Below, piece by piece: positions 1,654 to 6,147 of a stretch of DNA of 27,242 nt. Numbering within the stretch: the stretch's first letter is position 1; each line of letters opens with the position of its first letter. The stretch covers positions 1 to 27,242 of the IMG/VR virus record IMGVR_UViG_3300006789_000123; one strand, written 5' to 3'. The notes beneath the pieces are model-generated. The model worked only from the letters and a program-made list of their open reading frames with translations. It had not been told where the DNA came from and searched no databases. The position numbers were made by a program, and so were the translations under genes. Source of the DNA: a virus.

Positions 1654-2514
1654 TTACTGACCAGTTGCGCTGGCCTCGCATTGCCGTATGGCAATCCCTA
1701 TTTGCATCGCAATCTGTGGCACGATTGCGTTGCCTAATCCTTTAAGCTGGTCCACTCTGTTGGGTATCCCATGAGCCAGGCGACCCACTGGGGGTTCAGA
1801 GAGCCACCAATCTCCGCGTTTAGCGGCTTCGTATTGCGATTGTGCTGGCTCGCCCCACCATTGTTCTTCGCATCTTGCGCTGTCGGTGTCGGCCACATCC
1901 TCGCCTGATCCGCCAAATTCGCCCCGAATTTCAGGTCTGGGTTCGTCTTGCTTATGCGTCTGCCCTGTTCGTCCAGCTGTCTCGGCCCACCCGTTCCGTC
2001 CGATGCCCTCGGTGTCGCCCACATTTCGCCCGATGATCCAGACCCGGTCGCGTCTGTGCGGGGCATCGACACCGCAAGCCGGTACAATAAACGCCCTTGT
2101 GGCGTAGCCATCGGTTTCCAAGTCAGATAGCACCTGGTCGAGGCCCATAGAGACATGACCATAAACATTTTCGAAAACGCACCAAGCGGGTCGTTTTTGT
2201 GCAACAATCTCGCGGATGTGCGGCCAGATGTGGCGGTCATCTTCCGCGCCGAGGCGCTTCCCGGCTTGTGAGAATGGTTGACAAGGATACCCGGCAGTAA
2301 GAATTGTATCTCGTCCCCCGGCTGGGATTTTTTCTGGCTCATTTGCTAACACCTTTACATCTTCTTCGATTGGCACATCAGGCCAATGCTTTGCTAATAC
2401 TTTACGCGACCACGGCTCGATGTCGCAGAACATTGCCGGGCGTGATAGGCCAGCCCACTCGAACCCCAGCGCAAATCCACCGATGCCGCTACATAGGTCG
2501 ATATGCCGCATCAT
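1654..2514 (-). CDS. DNA (cytosine-5) methyltransferase
   Basis: A 286-residue C5-cytosine methyltransferase with its motifs in order: motif I DLCSGIGG (6-13, SAM binding), motif IV GYPCQPFS (75-82, catalytic Cys78), motif VI ENV (115-117), motif VIII HRRDRVWI (153-160) and motifs IX/X GLGNAIVPQIA (259-269). The region between VIII and IX (about 161-245) is the variable target-recognition part and is short. It would methylate cytosine in phage DNA, probably to evade host restriction; no matching restriction gene is seen, so it looks orphan. ATG codons at 2514 and 2511 are both possible. The start overlaps the stop of the upstream small gene (ATGATG against TGA). The target site cannot be read from sequence. 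Much of the gene is also open in a second frame (1734-2342). Confidence 0.95.
   Translation of the reverse strand: MMRHIDLCSGIGGFALGFEWAGLSRPAMFCDIEPWSRKVLAKHWPDVPIEEDVKVLANEPEKIPAGGRDTILTAGYPCQPFSQAGKRLGAEDDRHIWPHIREIVAQKRPAWCVFENVYGHVSMGLDQVLSDLETDGYATRAFIVPACGVDAPHRRDRVWIIGRNVGDTEGIGRNGWAETAGRTGQTHKQDEPRPEIRGEFGGSGEDVADTDSARCEEQWWGEPAQSQYEAAKRGDWWLSEPPVGRLAHGIPNRVDQLKGLGNAIVPQIAMQIGIAIRQCEASATGQ
1734..2342 (-). CDS. Candidate overlapping gene in the +1 frame of the methyltransferase
   Basis: A 202-codon open frame lies wholly inside the methyltransferase gene, same strand, shifted by +1. Its ATG at 2342 is the second codon after an in-frame stop and has AAGGTG (2350-2355) seven bases upstream. 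The product does not look like noise. It has CYLTWKPMATPQGRLLY (71-87), SMPRTD (92-97), two copies of a W-(A/P)-T-P-x-A-x-D motif (MWATPRASD at 107, MWPTPTAQDA at 149) and SLNPQWVAWLMGYPTEWTSL (181-200). From memory, these motifs recur in phage and prophage proteins encoded at or within methyltransferase loci. The open frame and ribosome binding site are seen; the family resemblance is recalled; expression is inference. It may be a real second product, or a remnant of an older frame of the methyltransferase C-terminus. Confidence 0.5.
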   Translation of the reverse strand: MSQKKSQPGDEIQFLLPGILVNHSHKPGSASARKMTATSGRTSARLLHKNDPLGAFSKMFMVMSLWASTRCYLTWKPMATPQGRLLYRLAVSMPRTDATGSGSSGEMWATPRASDGTGGPRQLDEQGRRISKTNPDLKFGANLADQARMWPTPTAQDAKNNGGASQHNRNTKPLNAEIGGSLNPQWVAWLMGYPTEWTSLKD

Positions 2515-2708
2515 TTGTTCGGCCGCCTGTTTGATCTGCGCCGTTGCATTGACTGCCGCGCAGTATGTGCAGATATAACAGAGCTACGCCACTTCGGGTT
2601 GCGCCACTTGTTTGTATCATTCCTGTTGCTGGCGTCAAACAACGCCGCCCGGCGTGCCTTTAGATACGCGGCAAACTCATCCACGCTCATTTCACTCGCT
2701 AGTTTCAT
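2511..2708 (-). CDS. Small basic protein of unknown function
   Basis: A 65-residue product. The N-terminal half, MSVDEFAAYLKARRAAL, looks like an amphipathic helix. The C-terminal third is very rich in Arg, Ser and Asn (RRRSNRRPNK at the end), so it could bind nucleic acid. I do not recognise a family. It sits between the Hjc-like nuclease, which it overlaps by 17 bases, and the methyltransferase, whose ATG overlaps its TGA, so the three are probably translationally coupled. An internal ATG at 2690 is an alternative start that would nearly abolish the upstream overlap. Confidence 0.6.
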   Translation of the reverse strand: MKLASEMSVDEFAAYLKARRAALFDASNRNDTNKWRNPKWRSSVISAHTARQSMQRRRSNRRPNK

Positions 2709-3129
2709 TGCACATCAACTCCCTCGCTACCATGCAGAAATCGTCAAACGTCATCTCGACTGCGTACTTCCAGTCATACCCGTCACCCATCTGGCGCTCA
2801 AACGTGGCCAGCATTGCCAGCGCCTCGATAGGCACGCGCCAACGCTCCGGCAGTCTATCGAATTTATAGACCAACGCCGGTATCTTCCCGGCCTTCGTTG
2901 CCGCCACGCAAACCTGATCCCAATGAGCCGGCGAGGCAAACGTGCTGCCCTGCCGGTAGCGTTTGCATTCAATTACAAACGGGAACGCGTCATCCTCGCA
3001 TGTTAGGTCAGGCAAGCCAGCCTCTGCCCATTGGTCTAGCACCCGGCGAAACTCCAGCCCAAGCGCATCGTGCAGCCTGTTCTTTACGTCACGCTCAAAC
3101 GATGCGCCCTTGTTGCGAGAGTTAACCAT
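2692..3129 (-). CDS. PD-(D/E)XK nuclease, Holliday-junction-resolvase-like
   Basis: A 145-residue protein starting MVNSRNKGASFERDVKNRL, with a Gly and Glu12 in the first helix, then LPDL (Asp41) and VIECK (Glu54-x-Lys56). Together these make the active-site pattern of Hjc- and VRR-type PD-(D/E)XK nucleases, and 145 residues is about the usual single-domain size. The likely role is cleaving branched DNA made by phage recombination or replication. It overlaps the ribbon-helix-helix gene upstream by 8 bases and the small basic gene downstream by 17. The fold and metal-dependent nuclease activity are well supported; true junction specificity is inferred from similarity and the replication context. 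Confidence 0.8.
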   Translation of the reverse strand: MVNSRNKGASFERDVKNRLHDALGLEFRRVLDQWAEAGLPDLTCEDDAFPFVIECKRYRQGSTFASPAHWDQVCVAATKAGKIPALVYKFDRLPERWRVPIEALAMLATFERQMGDGYDWKYAVEMTFDDFCMVARELMCNETSE

Positions 3130-3316
3130 TGCGTGCCGCCGCTATCACCCGGTCTAGGTCAGACCCGTCTTTGGTCAGGCGCTTTTCTAATTCCAGCGCC
3201 AGTATCTCGTCAGCCAATGACGCCATCGACCGATGCGCAGATTGCTCGACTGCTTCCTTCAGCATCAAAACTGTCTTAGTTCTGAGCCGTAATAATGTTG
3301 GTTTTGTGTTTGCCAT
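3122..3316 (-). CDS. Ribbon-helix-helix (Arc-like) DNA-binding protein
   Basis: A 64-residue protein with a short strand (TLLRLRT, about 7-13), a helix (about 15-27), a turn at HRSMA and a second helix (about 31-46). This is the layout of dimeric ribbon-helix-helix repressors such as Arc, which contact DNA through the strand. It is first in the leftward replication run and its ATG opens the divergent control region shared with the serine recombinase. That suggests it represses its own operon, the recombinase or both. The fold is fairly clear; the target is inference. The C-terminal 18 residues are a charged tail. Confidence 0.7.
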   Translation of the reverse strand: MANTKPTLLRLRTKTVLMLKEAVEQSAHRSMASLADEILALELEKRLTKDGSDLDRVIAAARNG

Positions 3317-3420
3317 GATATCGCCCTGATATATTTTTGCTATCTGTGCTTTACATTATGATATCAATGTGCGATAACAAAGTTGACGGCACGTTGACCG
3401 TCAGTTGAAAGGGAAGAAAA
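3317..3420. promoter_or_regulatory. Divergent control region with repeated half-sites
   Basis: These 104 bases separate the leftward replication run from the rightward recombinase block. ATGATATC occurs at 3315-3322 and 3358-3365, with a related TGATATA at 3327-3333. On the recombinase side TTGAC occurs at 3383 and 3394 and TTGA at 3404, spaced 10-11 bases (one helical turn), and GACGG/CCGTC form a small inverted repeat there. TATGAT (3357-3362) could be a -10 element toward the recombinase, but no good -35 is correctly spaced. AAAGGGAAG before 3421 is the recombinase ribosome binding site. The repeats are seen; that they are operators, for example for the ribbon-helix-helix protein, is inference. 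Confidence 0.5.
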
Positions 3421-4062
3421 ATGAAATTCATCGTTTACTACCGCGTATCAACTCAGCGTCAGGGCCAATCCGGCCTTGGCCTTGAGGCACAGAAGCACGC
3501 TTGTGCGCATTATGACATTGTCGCTGAGTACACAGAAGTCGAAAGCGGCAAGAAGTCCAACCGCCCGGAGCTTGCCAAGGCATTGGCGCACGCTAAAGAG
3601 ATAGGCGCGACACTGCTTATCGCAAAGCTTGACCGTCTGGCGCGTGATGCACGTTTCGCGCTTGAGCTAATGGACAGCGGCGCGCTGTTTAAGTTCGCCG
3701 ATATGCCAGACATCGACAACAGCACACCGCAAGGCCGGTTCTTCATCACACAGTTTGCGGCTATGGCGGAGCTAGAGGCCGCCATCATCAGTGAGCGCAC
3801 CAAGGCCGCGCTGGCCGCCGCCAAGCGCCGTGGCGTAAAGCTCGGCTCACCTGACCCAGCCAAGGGCGGCTCGGTCACAGGCAAGCAACGCGCCAGCGCC
3901 ACCGCACAGGTAGCGCCGCAAGCCATGCCTATCATTAACGCATTGCGCAAGGCCGGTCAGAGCCTACGCGCCATCGCATCCGCGCTGAACGAGGCGCAGA
4001 TACCAACCGCCATGGGCGGTCAGTGGCACGCATCCAGCGTGCGTAACCTAATCAACGCATAA
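3421..4062 (+). CDS. Serine recombinase (resolvase/invertase family)
   Basis: A 213-residue serine recombinase. The N-terminal catalytic domain has YYRVSTQRQGQSGLGLEAQ (6-24) with nucleophile Ser10 and Arg8, KLDRLAR (69-75) with the catalytic arginines, and ERTKAAL (125-131) in the long E helix. Residues about 165-213 (IINALRKAGQSLRAIASALN, then SSVRNLI) form a helix-turn-helix of the kind that starts the 'Recombinase' domain. The protein lacks the zinc ribbon and coiled coil of large serine integrases, so it resembles a resolvase or invertase more than a phage integrase. It may resolve phage dimers or invert a segment, but no inverted crossover sites are obvious here. It is the first gene of the plus-strand block. 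Confidence 0.88.
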   Translation: MKFIVYYRVSTQRQGQSGLGLEAQKHACAHYDIVAEYTEVESGKKSNRPELAKALAHAKEIGATLLIAKLDRLARDARFALELMDSGALFKFADMPDIDNSTPQGRFFITQFAAMAELEAAIISERTKAALAAAKRRGVKLGSPDPAKGGSVTGKQRASATAQVAPQAMPIINALRKAGQSLRAIASALNEAQIPTAMGGQWHASSVRNLINA

Positions 4063-4196: not shown

Positions 4197-5201
4197 ATGC
4201 TTGTTTATCTGGCCACCAATAAGGTCAATGGGATGCAATATGTCGGGGTTACCACGCGCAAAAAAATGTCGGATAGGATTAGGGAACATTTTAGATATGC
4301 GAAAAGATGCACCCCAGCGCAGGGGTCATTTCAAGAGGCTATAAAAAAATATGGCCAAGAAAATATATCTTTCAAAACTATTCAGCGCGCCAAAAATTTA
4401 GAAGAATTAAGTGATGCCGAGTGCGCTTGGATAGAAAAATTAAACACAATGCACCCGAATGGCTACAACCTAAAGAAAGGTGGCGTGCCAGCAACACTCC
4501 CAATTCGAGATAGAGTTTTCACTGTTGATGGCAAAAAGTACAACAGCGTGATGTCCCTCGCTGATGCTTACAATATAGACCACCACACTTTACGCTTCCG
4601 GCTTTTTAAATCTGTAAAGCCTTGGTCTTTGGAGCAAGCATTAGGATTTGAAAATCCACCAGAACATGAGGCGGCGAGGTTCTGCAAGCCGATAAAATTT
4701 AATGGCAAGTTTTTTAAATCTCATGCGGATGTCTGTAGGTATTACGGCATTAATAATTTTACAAACTTTCGGCAAAGGCTAAGGAATGGTTGGAGCATTC
4801 AGCAAGCCTTGGGGGTGGCTACTCGACAAACCATCAGAAAAAGCGGATGCGAAAAATGCGTGACGGTTGATGGCACACAGTTCGAGAGCATTGCTGCTGC
4901 TGCAAGACAATATAATATCAGCCCAAACATTGTCAGCCAAAGGCTTGGAAGGGGGTGGACAACAAGACAATCTCTTGAGGTAGACCCGCCGCCAAAAAAG
5001 AAAAAGCACGGGAAGTCCGTGGCCGGGTATGCTTCCGTTGCTGAAGCGGCTAGAGCTAACAATCTAAATATAACAACACTACACCAAAGATTAAAAAATG
5101 GCTGGGATATTAACGCTGCTTTATCTCACAAGCCGCAACCGGGCAGCAATCATTATAACACAATAGGAGTGAAAACTAATGGTCGGAAAACTAACACCTG
5201 A
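4197..5201 (+). CDS. GIY-YIG endonuclease with four C-terminal DNA-binding-like repeats
   Basis: A 334-residue protein. The N-terminus (LVYLATNKVNGMQYVGVTT, 2-20) is a GIY-YIG variant, followed by RIREHF (27-32, catalytic Arg) and an acidic helix with WIEKLNT (78-84, catalytic Glu). Residues 107-310 hold four copies of a module of about 40 residues, beginning near 107, 165, 222 and 273. Each has a G-x-x-(Y/F)-x-S-type entry, an Ala-rich helix ending in YxI or NxL, an R-L pair, a GW-x-x-x-x-(A/S)-L helix and a short linker, like repeated NUMOD-type DNA-binding units of homing endonucleases. The gene is visibly more AT-rich than its neighbours. Its last 23 bases overlap the exonuclease gene, whose AGGAG ribosome binding site lies inside it. 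It is probably a free-standing homing endonuclease acquired by transfer. Confidence 0.85.
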   Translation: MLVYLATNKVNGMQYVGVTTRKKMSDRIREHFRYAKRCTPAQGSFQEAIKKYGQENISFKTIQRAKNLEELSDAECAWIEKLNTMHPNGYNLKKGGVPATLPIRDRVFTVDGKKYNSVMSLADAYNIDHHTLRFRLFKSVKPWSLEQALGFENPPEHEAARFCKPIKFNGKFFKSHADVCRYYGINNFTNFRQRLRNGWSIQQALGVATRQTIRKSGCEKCVTVDGTQFESIAAAARQYNISPNIVSQRLGRGWTTRQSLEVDPPPKKKKHGKSVAGYASVAEAARANNLNITTLHQRLKNGWDINAALSHKPQPGSNHYNTIGVKTNGRKTNT

Positions 5202-6147
5202 TAACATGCTATCAGCTTCGCGCATCGCGCAGTTGATGGGGCAATCACCATACGCCACGCAAAACGAATTGCTTGCTGAATTTGTAGACCGGGACGCTGG
5301 CAAAGAGCCAGAGCCGTGGGAAGGCAACGAGCTAACACGCTGGGGAGATATCCATGAACCGGCTGTGATCGCAGAGGTGGCACGACGCCTCGGCCTTGTC
5401 GATGTCCAGGACGATTTCGAGCAAGCGTTCTTCCACGACAAGCTGCGCATAGCGGCATCGCTGGACGGCATGGCTACCGGCACGCGCTTGGTGAAAGAGG
5501 ATTACGCGCAGGGCATCATCATCCCCGGCCCCGCAAACGCAATCCAGATTACCGACAAAAAATTGTTGCTGGAAATTAAGACAACACAGGCAGCGCCAGA
5601 AGATCTGCCGCCACCACATCGGGGCGTGTTGCAGCTACAAGCGCAGATGATGTGCGCTGGCGCAGACATGGGCGCGGTGTGTGTACTTTATCGCGGGTCT
5701 ACCCTGCGCATATTCTTGTACCACGCTGACGCCGGGGTGCATTCACGCATCGCGCAAGCTGTGCATGAGTTTGAGCAACGCCGCGCCGACATTGATTGGT
5801 ATCCGCTGATGACGCCAGCCGATGGCAACGTAGCCTACAGCCGTGTCGATGATGTGGCGCATCCTTTGGACGTATCAGGCGGCGAGGTTCAGGACGCTAT
5901 CGAGGCTTTGGTAGAGGCGAAGCGCGCAAAAAAAGAATGCGACCAGATTATCGCTGACGCAGAGACGGTGATAAAGGATTTTATGGGTAACCATGAAGAG
6001 GCAAACACCGTTGTTGATGGCAAGCGTGTGATAGTTAAATGGGGTATGCGCAACATGAAGGCCACGCCGGAGAAAGTAACGCCGGCAAAGCCAGCCATGC
6101 GTGTGCGTCAGAATGCTTTGACTGTGAAAGAGCTTGGCAATGTATAG
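5179..6147 (+). CDS. YqaJ/lambda-type recombination exonuclease
   Basis: A 322-residue PD-(D/E)XK exonuclease of the YqaJ viral-recombinase family. Visible motifs are SASRIAQLMGQSPYAT (12-27), GDIHEP (56-61), SLDG (94-97, catalytic Asp96), LLEIKT (130-135, Glu132-x-Lys134) and QLQAQM (152-157). These match lambda exonuclease, which degrades the 5' strand at double-strand ends for annealing recombination. Residues about 235-275 are helical and may form a coiled coil; the Lys-rich tail could touch DNA. No Beta/RecT annealase is adjacent, but the SSB-like protein or a gene outside the window could serve. The ATG at 5179 follows AGGAG (5164-5168), which lies within the GIY-YIG gene. Confidence 0.88.
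   Translation: MVGKLTPDNMLSASRIAQLMGQSPYATQNELLAEFVDRDAGKEPEPWEGNELTRWGDIHEPAVIAEVARRLGLVDVQDDFEQAFFHDKLRIAASLDGMATGTRLVKEDYAQGIIIPGPANAIQITDKKLLLEIKTTQAAPEDLPPPHRGVLQLQAQMMCAGADMGAVCVLYRGSTLRIFLYHADAGVHSRIAQAVHEFEQRRADIDWYPLMTPADGNVAYSRVDDVAHPLDVSGGEVQDAIEALVEAKRAKKECDQIIADAETVIKDFMGNHEEANTVVDGKRVIVKWGMRNMKATPEKVTPAKPAMRVRQNALTVKELGNV

Follow-up and report, generated by a model that had tools for sequence, protein, structure and literature searches.

The window analysed here is the whole of a 27,242-base virus record, and two overlapping genes, which we call alpha and beta, are encoded on its minus strand (Table 1). The beta reading frame lies wholly inside that of alpha, in the +1 frame, and its start has the context TAG CAA ATG, with the ATG located one codon past an in-frame stop. 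An initial annotation of this DNA had picked out this 202-codon frame, the preceding stop and an AAGGTG ribosome binding site, all of which are found exactly where it had placed them. The two W-[AP]-T-P boxes it described (MWATPRASD and MWPTPTAQD) and the peptides GRLLYRLAVSMPRTD and LNPQWVAWLMGYP are likewise present in beta, and the segments LNPQWVAWLMGYPTEWTSL of beta and EPPVGRLAHGIPNRVDQLKGLGNA of alpha are indeed encoded by common DNA. Two genes upstream of alpha we find a PDDEXK_15/RusA-like resolvase gene (2692-3129, minus strand), and the methyltransferase operon is adjoined by a serine recombinase (3421-4062, plus strand). Also encoded next to the operon are a YqaJ-type exonuclease (5179-6147, plus strand) and a GIY-YIG protein (4197-5201, plus strand) in which intron-endonuclease-like DNA-binding segments are repeated.

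Table 1. Features of the alpha/beta locus, in window coordinates.
Feature	Position	Strand	Evidence
Alpha: predicted catalytic subunit, C5-cytosine DNA methyltransferase, 286 aa	1654..2514	-	Motifs I-VIII and X, no motif IX; PF00145, phrog_363, AF2 match to M.HhaI
Beta: overlapping +1-frame putative subunit, 202 aa (N-domain, two W-x-T-P modules, motif IX)	1734..2342	-	phrog_1008; kept in the same +1 frame in 319/322 loci; frame-specific constraint
AAGGTG, Shine-Dalgarno-like site of beta, 7 nt before ATG	2350..2355	-	Sequence; Shine-Dalgarno enrichment in relatives
In-frame TAG bounding beta upstream	2346..2348	-	Sequence
Alpha motif IV, catalytic PCQ	2278..2286	-	Sequence; invariant in alpha alignment (A4)
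Alpha motif VI, ENV	2164..2172	-	Sequence; invariant in alpha alignment (A4)
Alpha motif VIII region, HRRDRVWII	2032..2058	-	Sequence; H and both R invariant
Alpha residues about 170-246, predicted disordered; beta modules in +1 of the same DNA	1777..2007	-	AF2 pLDDT; overlap-aware rates
Alpha motif X, LKGLGNAIVPQIAMQIG	1693..1746	-	A4 conservation; AF2 helices 253-261 and 266-284
Beta N-domain, residues 1-98, SGR...LTWKPMATPQGRLLYRLAVSMPRTD, opposite alpha motifs IV-VIII	2049..2342	-	Alignments A1/A3; drop in alpha third-position variability, 0.463 to 0.264
Beta module 1, WATPRASDGTGGPRQLDEQGRRISKTNPDLKFGANLADQAR	1896..2021	-	Module family at several positions in other proteins
Beta module 2, WPTPTAQDAKNNGGASQHNRNTKPLNAEIGG	1800..1895	-	81% identity to a module of L032 at another position in the chain; alpha cores 47%
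Beta motif IX (putative), LNPQWVAWLMGYPTEW	1752..1799	-	Motif IX profile; position equals GGRRLTARFAEWLMGLPDGWVT-(X) where IX and X share a frame

Alpha matches the families PF00145 (E=6.3e-34), with the match confined to residues 2-168 of 286, and phrog_363 (E=1.7e-69). Its AF2 model, calculated from 74 sequences, has a mean pLDDT of 78.5. The catalytic core (pLDDT over 90) and the two motif X helices are confidently predicted, and residues 175-246 are mostly disordered, with a pLDDT of about 45-50 over about residues 170-246. The modelled fold is that of M.HhaI (Z 24.4, 204 residues aligned). With motifs I, IV (PCQ), VI (ENV) and VIII and an HhaI-like large domain, alpha satisfies the criterion for a C5-methyltransferase (C5-MTase). 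We found neither a motif IX nor an ordered target-recognition domain in the window alpha, and the presence of all motifs I-X in one chain is not met. Judged from its motifs and predicted fold, alpha is the catalytic subunit of a C5-cytosine DNA MTase.

Beta matches phrog_1008 over residues 2-199 (E=5.8e-30). This PHROG is labelled 'DNA methyltransferase', which is silent on the overlap with an MTase gene and on the part of the enzyme concerned. Searches of Pfam with 97 beta sequences and of NCBIfam with the window beta returned no family, and a comparison of the beta sequence with solved structures gave nothing credible. The AF2 model of beta alone is weak (pLDDT 65, pTM 0.31), and its comparison with solved structures, in which no row exceeded Z 3.9, is uninformative for a model of such low confidence. 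The best BFVD match of the model is a viral protein named cytosine-specific methyltransferase. In nearly all members, the beta C-terminus reads G-x-L-N-P-x-W-V-x-W-L-M-G-[YF]-P, the spacing of which fits the canonical motif IX, R-[KR]-L-T-P-R-E-C-A-R-L-M-G-[FY]-P, with the canonical PRE residues missing. A motif IX profile built from HhaI-like enzymes gives the window beta a score of 3.5, compared with -3.4 for the shuffled 99% level. The best profile match is at the expected site in 112 of 119 non-redundant beta members, and only 63 of the 119 exceed the shuffled level. This profile is narrow (the motif X of alpha also scores low), and the main argument for a motif IX in beta is thus its position together with the actinophage loci described below, which bridge the two arrangements. 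In known C5-MTases, the small domain contains the variable region and motif IX (PMC3404938). Beta very probably has a role in target recognition, an assignment that rests on position, modularity and motif IX because its AF2 model is weak and no solved fold matches it.

It is conceivable that only alpha is coding, and that the openness and conservation of the +1 frame are mere by-products of alpha codons and composition. Every window-type beta relative overlaps an alpha, as this explanation would have it, and no standalone beta without alpha was found among the window-type loci; the exceptions L074, L208, L218 and L309 look like indels or broken ORFs. We asked how often alpha alone would leave the +1 frame open. 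In the window, synonymous shuffles that hold the alpha protein and its codon usage fixed do so in 0.7% of cases, with 4.8 stops expected and none present, in a region that is defined by the beta ORF itself. The nested ORF is present in the same +1 phase in 319 of 322 related viral and bacterial loci, drawn from IMG/VR, species genomes, and phage and plasmid records. Among the loci retrieved with alpha as the sole query, 77 of 78 carry beta in this phase. For 48 non-redundant alpha-ascertained loci, the region was set by alpha motifs, which avoids defining it by the beta ORF. Here, all 48 frames are open, and 10,179 codons contain no stop, compared with 258 expected with the alpha protein fixed. 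A second alpha-only scan, which used a divergent relative as query and likewise avoids a region defined by beta, found 66 of 69 frames open and 5 stops versus 313 expected. In contrast, 79 HhaI-like C5-MTases from the same collection are at expectation (994 stops versus 978 expected), with none of the 79 open. The nested second frame is real and not a product of chance. The protein-coding appearance that had been attributed to it is borne out by stop counts far under the synonymous-shuffle expectation. Two outcomes named beforehand as refuting it did not materialize: stops in homologues are absent from the 48 alpha-ascertained loci, and relatives of the second-frame protein exist, down to about 30% identity.

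Purifying selection acts on both frames. In pairs with 30-50% identity in alpha, beta identity is 0.298, compared with 0.200 for a null in which alpha codons are resampled, and lies above the null in 142 of 144 pairs. The reverse test in pairs of the same range gives an alpha identity of 0.358 versus 0.225, above the null in 144 of 144. We next consider differences at alpha codon positions 1/2/3 in closer pairs, which are 0.163/0.086/0.463 in the alpha-only segment before beta begins and 0.172/0.096/0.264 where beta overlaps motifs IV-VIII. They become 0.338/0.182/0.207 in the modules and variable region and 0.149/0.064/0.094 at motif IX, and are 0.112/0.078/0.413 past the end of beta, in the alpha-only 3' end. 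By this codon-position variability, the dominant frame changes from alpha over motifs IV-VIII to beta over the variable region, the latter being inferred because position 1 of alpha is the wobble position of beta. Overlap-aware rates give an omega_alpha of 0.11-0.16 before the overlap, and an omega_beta of 0.28-0.44 and an omega_alpha of 0.51-0.82 in the modules and variable region. Alpha is nearly unconstrained opposite the modules (dNN/dSN 0.82), where beta is constrained. Normal synonymous variation across the overlap, the third outcome that would have spoken against the second frame, is not seen; the variation is suppressed. The suppression at third positions, the switch of the dominant frame and the excess of beta identity over its null all argue against a shadow cast by alpha, as do two properties of the modules outlined below, namely their higher identity in the beta reading and their occurrence in alpha's own frame in L512. 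Taken together, synonymous-shuffle nulls, HhaI-like controls and codon-position profiles rule out a shadow of conserved alpha codons, to which we attach practically no weight.

Beta proteins contain 1-7 segments that start with W-x-T-P and have a median length of 38 residues, with two in the window beta. These modules were counted by a simple pattern, and a few of the counted segments are pieces of the N-domain. Enzymes with <50% identity in their alpha cores can have module segments that are 70-93% identical, often at a different position, and module 2 of the window is such a case (Table 1). Module peptides show 90% identity, compared with 35% for the alpha translation of that DNA. This comparison is biased, as pairs were picked by beta similarity; the codon-position and overlap-aware rates use nucleotide alignments. 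The C72C1 locus (L001) and L020 have the N-domain of the window almost unchanged and different modules, and L009 and L010 retain the first module of the window with a different second one. A published TL motif, P(STCA)PT(ILV)(TASV), occurs in target-recognition domains 10-50 residues ahead of motif IX (PMC2413257); we regard its resemblance to the beta box P-T-P-T-A as a lead and not as a test. In a Paenibacillus bovis plasmid (NZ_CP021170, L484, about 2992-3393), an extra non-overlapping fragment downstream of the alpha/beta pair consists of one module and a motif IX (WPTPMASGHQIVAPRRGKGQIVTLSQQLAIYEPDHIGEVINPAWIECMMGFPEGWTSL). Its annotation is 'hypothetical protein', and it may be either a leftover or a spare cassette. 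Two separate records, L507 and L511, have a stretch of one module (HGPTLDDEVSFLLP) in the alpha frame but the beginning of that module, like the module after it, in +1.

We sorted all loci by the frame of their modules, motif IX and motif X relative to alpha motifs I-VIII and obtained four layouts. Modules and motif IX are in +1 and motif X is in frame 0 in 334 window-type loci plus 5 others. All three are in +1 in 25 actinophage-type loci. In Streptomyces phage Samy, alpha stops just past motif VIII, and the +1 frame contains the N-domain, the modules, motif IX (RRLAARFAEWLMGLPDGWVT) and motif X (GNGVVP). Five loci, among them L507, L519 and Gordonia phage Rabbitrun (L555), have modules in +1 and motifs IX and X in frame 0, and six, including L512 and Mycobacterium phage Fancypants (L556), have all three in frame 0. 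In this last group, the modules are located between motifs VIII and IX of one chain, which corresponds to the target-recognition position. Tandem exchangeable modules occupy this place in the single-frame relatives, their function in recognition being inferred. In L512 and L556, the beta N-domain and a first module can still be recognized in +1. L512 and Samy share the module DWKSGASNL...NSRPLNE, encoded in frame 0 by the former and in +1 by the latter, so that what is conserved is the module peptide. Comparison of the relatives shows that the modules as well as motifs IX and X have changed frame. The initial annotation had offered two readings, a dual-coding gene, perhaps with a target-recognition partner, and an enzyme family whose C-terminal third changed frame, with both frames retained. 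Both are supported as parts of one history: the two frames are each under purifying selection, with partnership and target recognition being inferred, and the beta frame carries the cassette-like modules and motif IX.

The Roseovarius MAG chromosome OX638333.1 contains five loci (L181-L185) with equal match statistics at different positions, which are apparently copies of one alpha/beta locus. A Klebsiella phage-plasmid locus (L559), with modules in its +1 frame, adjoins a replication endonuclease gene. Chromosomal relatives of this locus are present in 66 of 5,426 complete E. coli genomes, where they are mostly annotated as one 'DNA cytosine methyltransferase'.

Modules and motif IX stand in the order expected of an ordinary MTase yet out of frame. 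A programmed +1 shift could join alpha motifs I-VIII to them, in which case beta would not be a separate protein. Such a fusion actually exists in L074, where an apparent indel has joined alpha I-VIII to the beta modules and motif IX in one ORF, with motif X in another. However, the beta N-domain is located upstream of any such shift, and it is conserved and suppresses alpha third positions, which makes a frameshift fusion less likely. In addition, the first beta start lies within 3 codons of an in-frame stop in 123 of 184 relatives, and an AGGAGG-type core (at least 4 nt) precedes it in 68%, compared with 16% at internal start codons, which points to independent initiation. The AAGGTG of the window is weaker than this criterion. 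We consider a programmed shift very unlikely and favor beta as a protein with its own start.

Our proposal is a two-polypeptide C5-MTase in which the specificity half is overprinted on the catalytic half, and we hold it to be highly likely, with translation, assembly and specificity remaining inferences. Dual coding, the assignment of motifs to frames, the exchange of modules, the alpha fold and the disorder of the alpha variable region follow directly from the computations. Alpha, in frame 0, would form the large catalytic domain, with motifs I-VIII binding AdoMet and carrying the PCQ nucleophile, and the chain would return at its C-terminus with the motif X helix. Beta, in +1 with its own start, would provide the small domain, composed of an N-terminal dock, 1-7 target-recognition modules and motif IX. 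In M.HhaI and M.HaeIII, motif IX is found in the small domain alongside the target-recognition region. The two chains would be translated independently from one mRNA and assemble into one active enzyme. The beta modules would set the methylated sequence or sequences, so that a module swap would change specificity. Phage MTases are usually explained by protection of phage DNA from restriction, and protection from host restriction is the benefit assumed here. Translation of beta, its assembly with alpha, the modules as target-recognition domains and the protection from restriction are all inferred, in the absence of translation, binding or methylation data. Beta might also be translated and act as a regulator, inhibitor or anti-restriction factor rather than as the specificity half, given that no solved fold matches it and that functional data are lacking. 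Yet this would leave alpha without motif IX and without an ordered small domain, and beta has a motif IX and modules at the target-recognition position of single-frame relatives. We accordingly see little room for a regulator and retain beta as the putative specificity half.

The arrangement is kept in hundreds of phages and prophages, including E. coli prophages, and is usually annotated as a single gene. Annotation pipelines usually list alpha only or label both frames 'DNA methyltransferase', and as a consequence beta is missing from Pfam and NCBIfam, and a probable specificity determinant has been overlooked. In Paenibacillus larvae phage Shelly, the same nested ORF is annotated as 'g55 internal gene' (SHELLY_56), with no function assigned. 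In our literature search, we did not come across any account of the family as a nested pair of wide distribution, nor of its breadth, the strict +1 phase, the beta cassettes, the opposed disorder of alpha and the series of frame layouts. To our knowledge, there are few documented cases of long, ancient and demonstrably dual-coding genes from DNA phages and bacteria, and the locus represents a natural test of two constrained frames sharing one DNA. We lean towards the view, with some reserve, that a whole specificity half has been overprinted here as exchangeable cassettes, with a disordered linker in the catalytic frame tolerating swaps and with modules and motifs IX and X moving between frames, in a very widespread family. 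If this is true, a phage could alter its methylation specificities, or stack several, and would need no separate gene for specificity. The cassette set is readable, at about 40 residues each, and methylome sequencing could serve to decipher its recognition code.

We compared the window pair to other C5-MTases. The multispecific Bacillus phage enzymes SPR and M.H2I (phage H2) have tandem target-recognition domains in one enzyme (PMC8936443). The window modules are arranged in tandem like these domains, but SPR and M.H2I are single chains, whereas window-type modules are usually read in +1, and multispecificity is without functional data in our case. M.AquI (CYCGRG) is a natural two-chain C5-MTase with motifs I-VIII in the larger chain and the distal variable region, IX and X in the smaller (PMC3404938). 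Its layout is like that of Samy and the 25 actinophage-type loci, in which IX and X are both in the smaller chain. This criterion is not met in the window, where motif X is in alpha and the genes are nested in two frames. In M.EcoHK31I (YGGCCR), the smaller chain is reportedly encoded in another frame inside the gene of the larger chain, and both are said to be needed for activity. The larger chain of this two-polypeptide C5-MTase contains I-VIII and X, the smaller motif IX alone, and the target-recognition domain is predicted in the larger chain (PMC3404938). The window locus is alike in having I-VIII and X in the larger and IX in the smaller chain, and the smaller chain is nested in the other frame. 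A target-recognition domain in the larger chain is not met; the window modules are in beta, and alpha is disordered and nearly unconstrained there. Window-type carriers, in addition, are mainly phages and prophages, with 1-7 modules. Although no sequence comparison with M.EcoHK31I was made, the best explanation by analogy is that the window pair is of the M.EcoHK31I kind, in a phage-wide variant with module cassettes.
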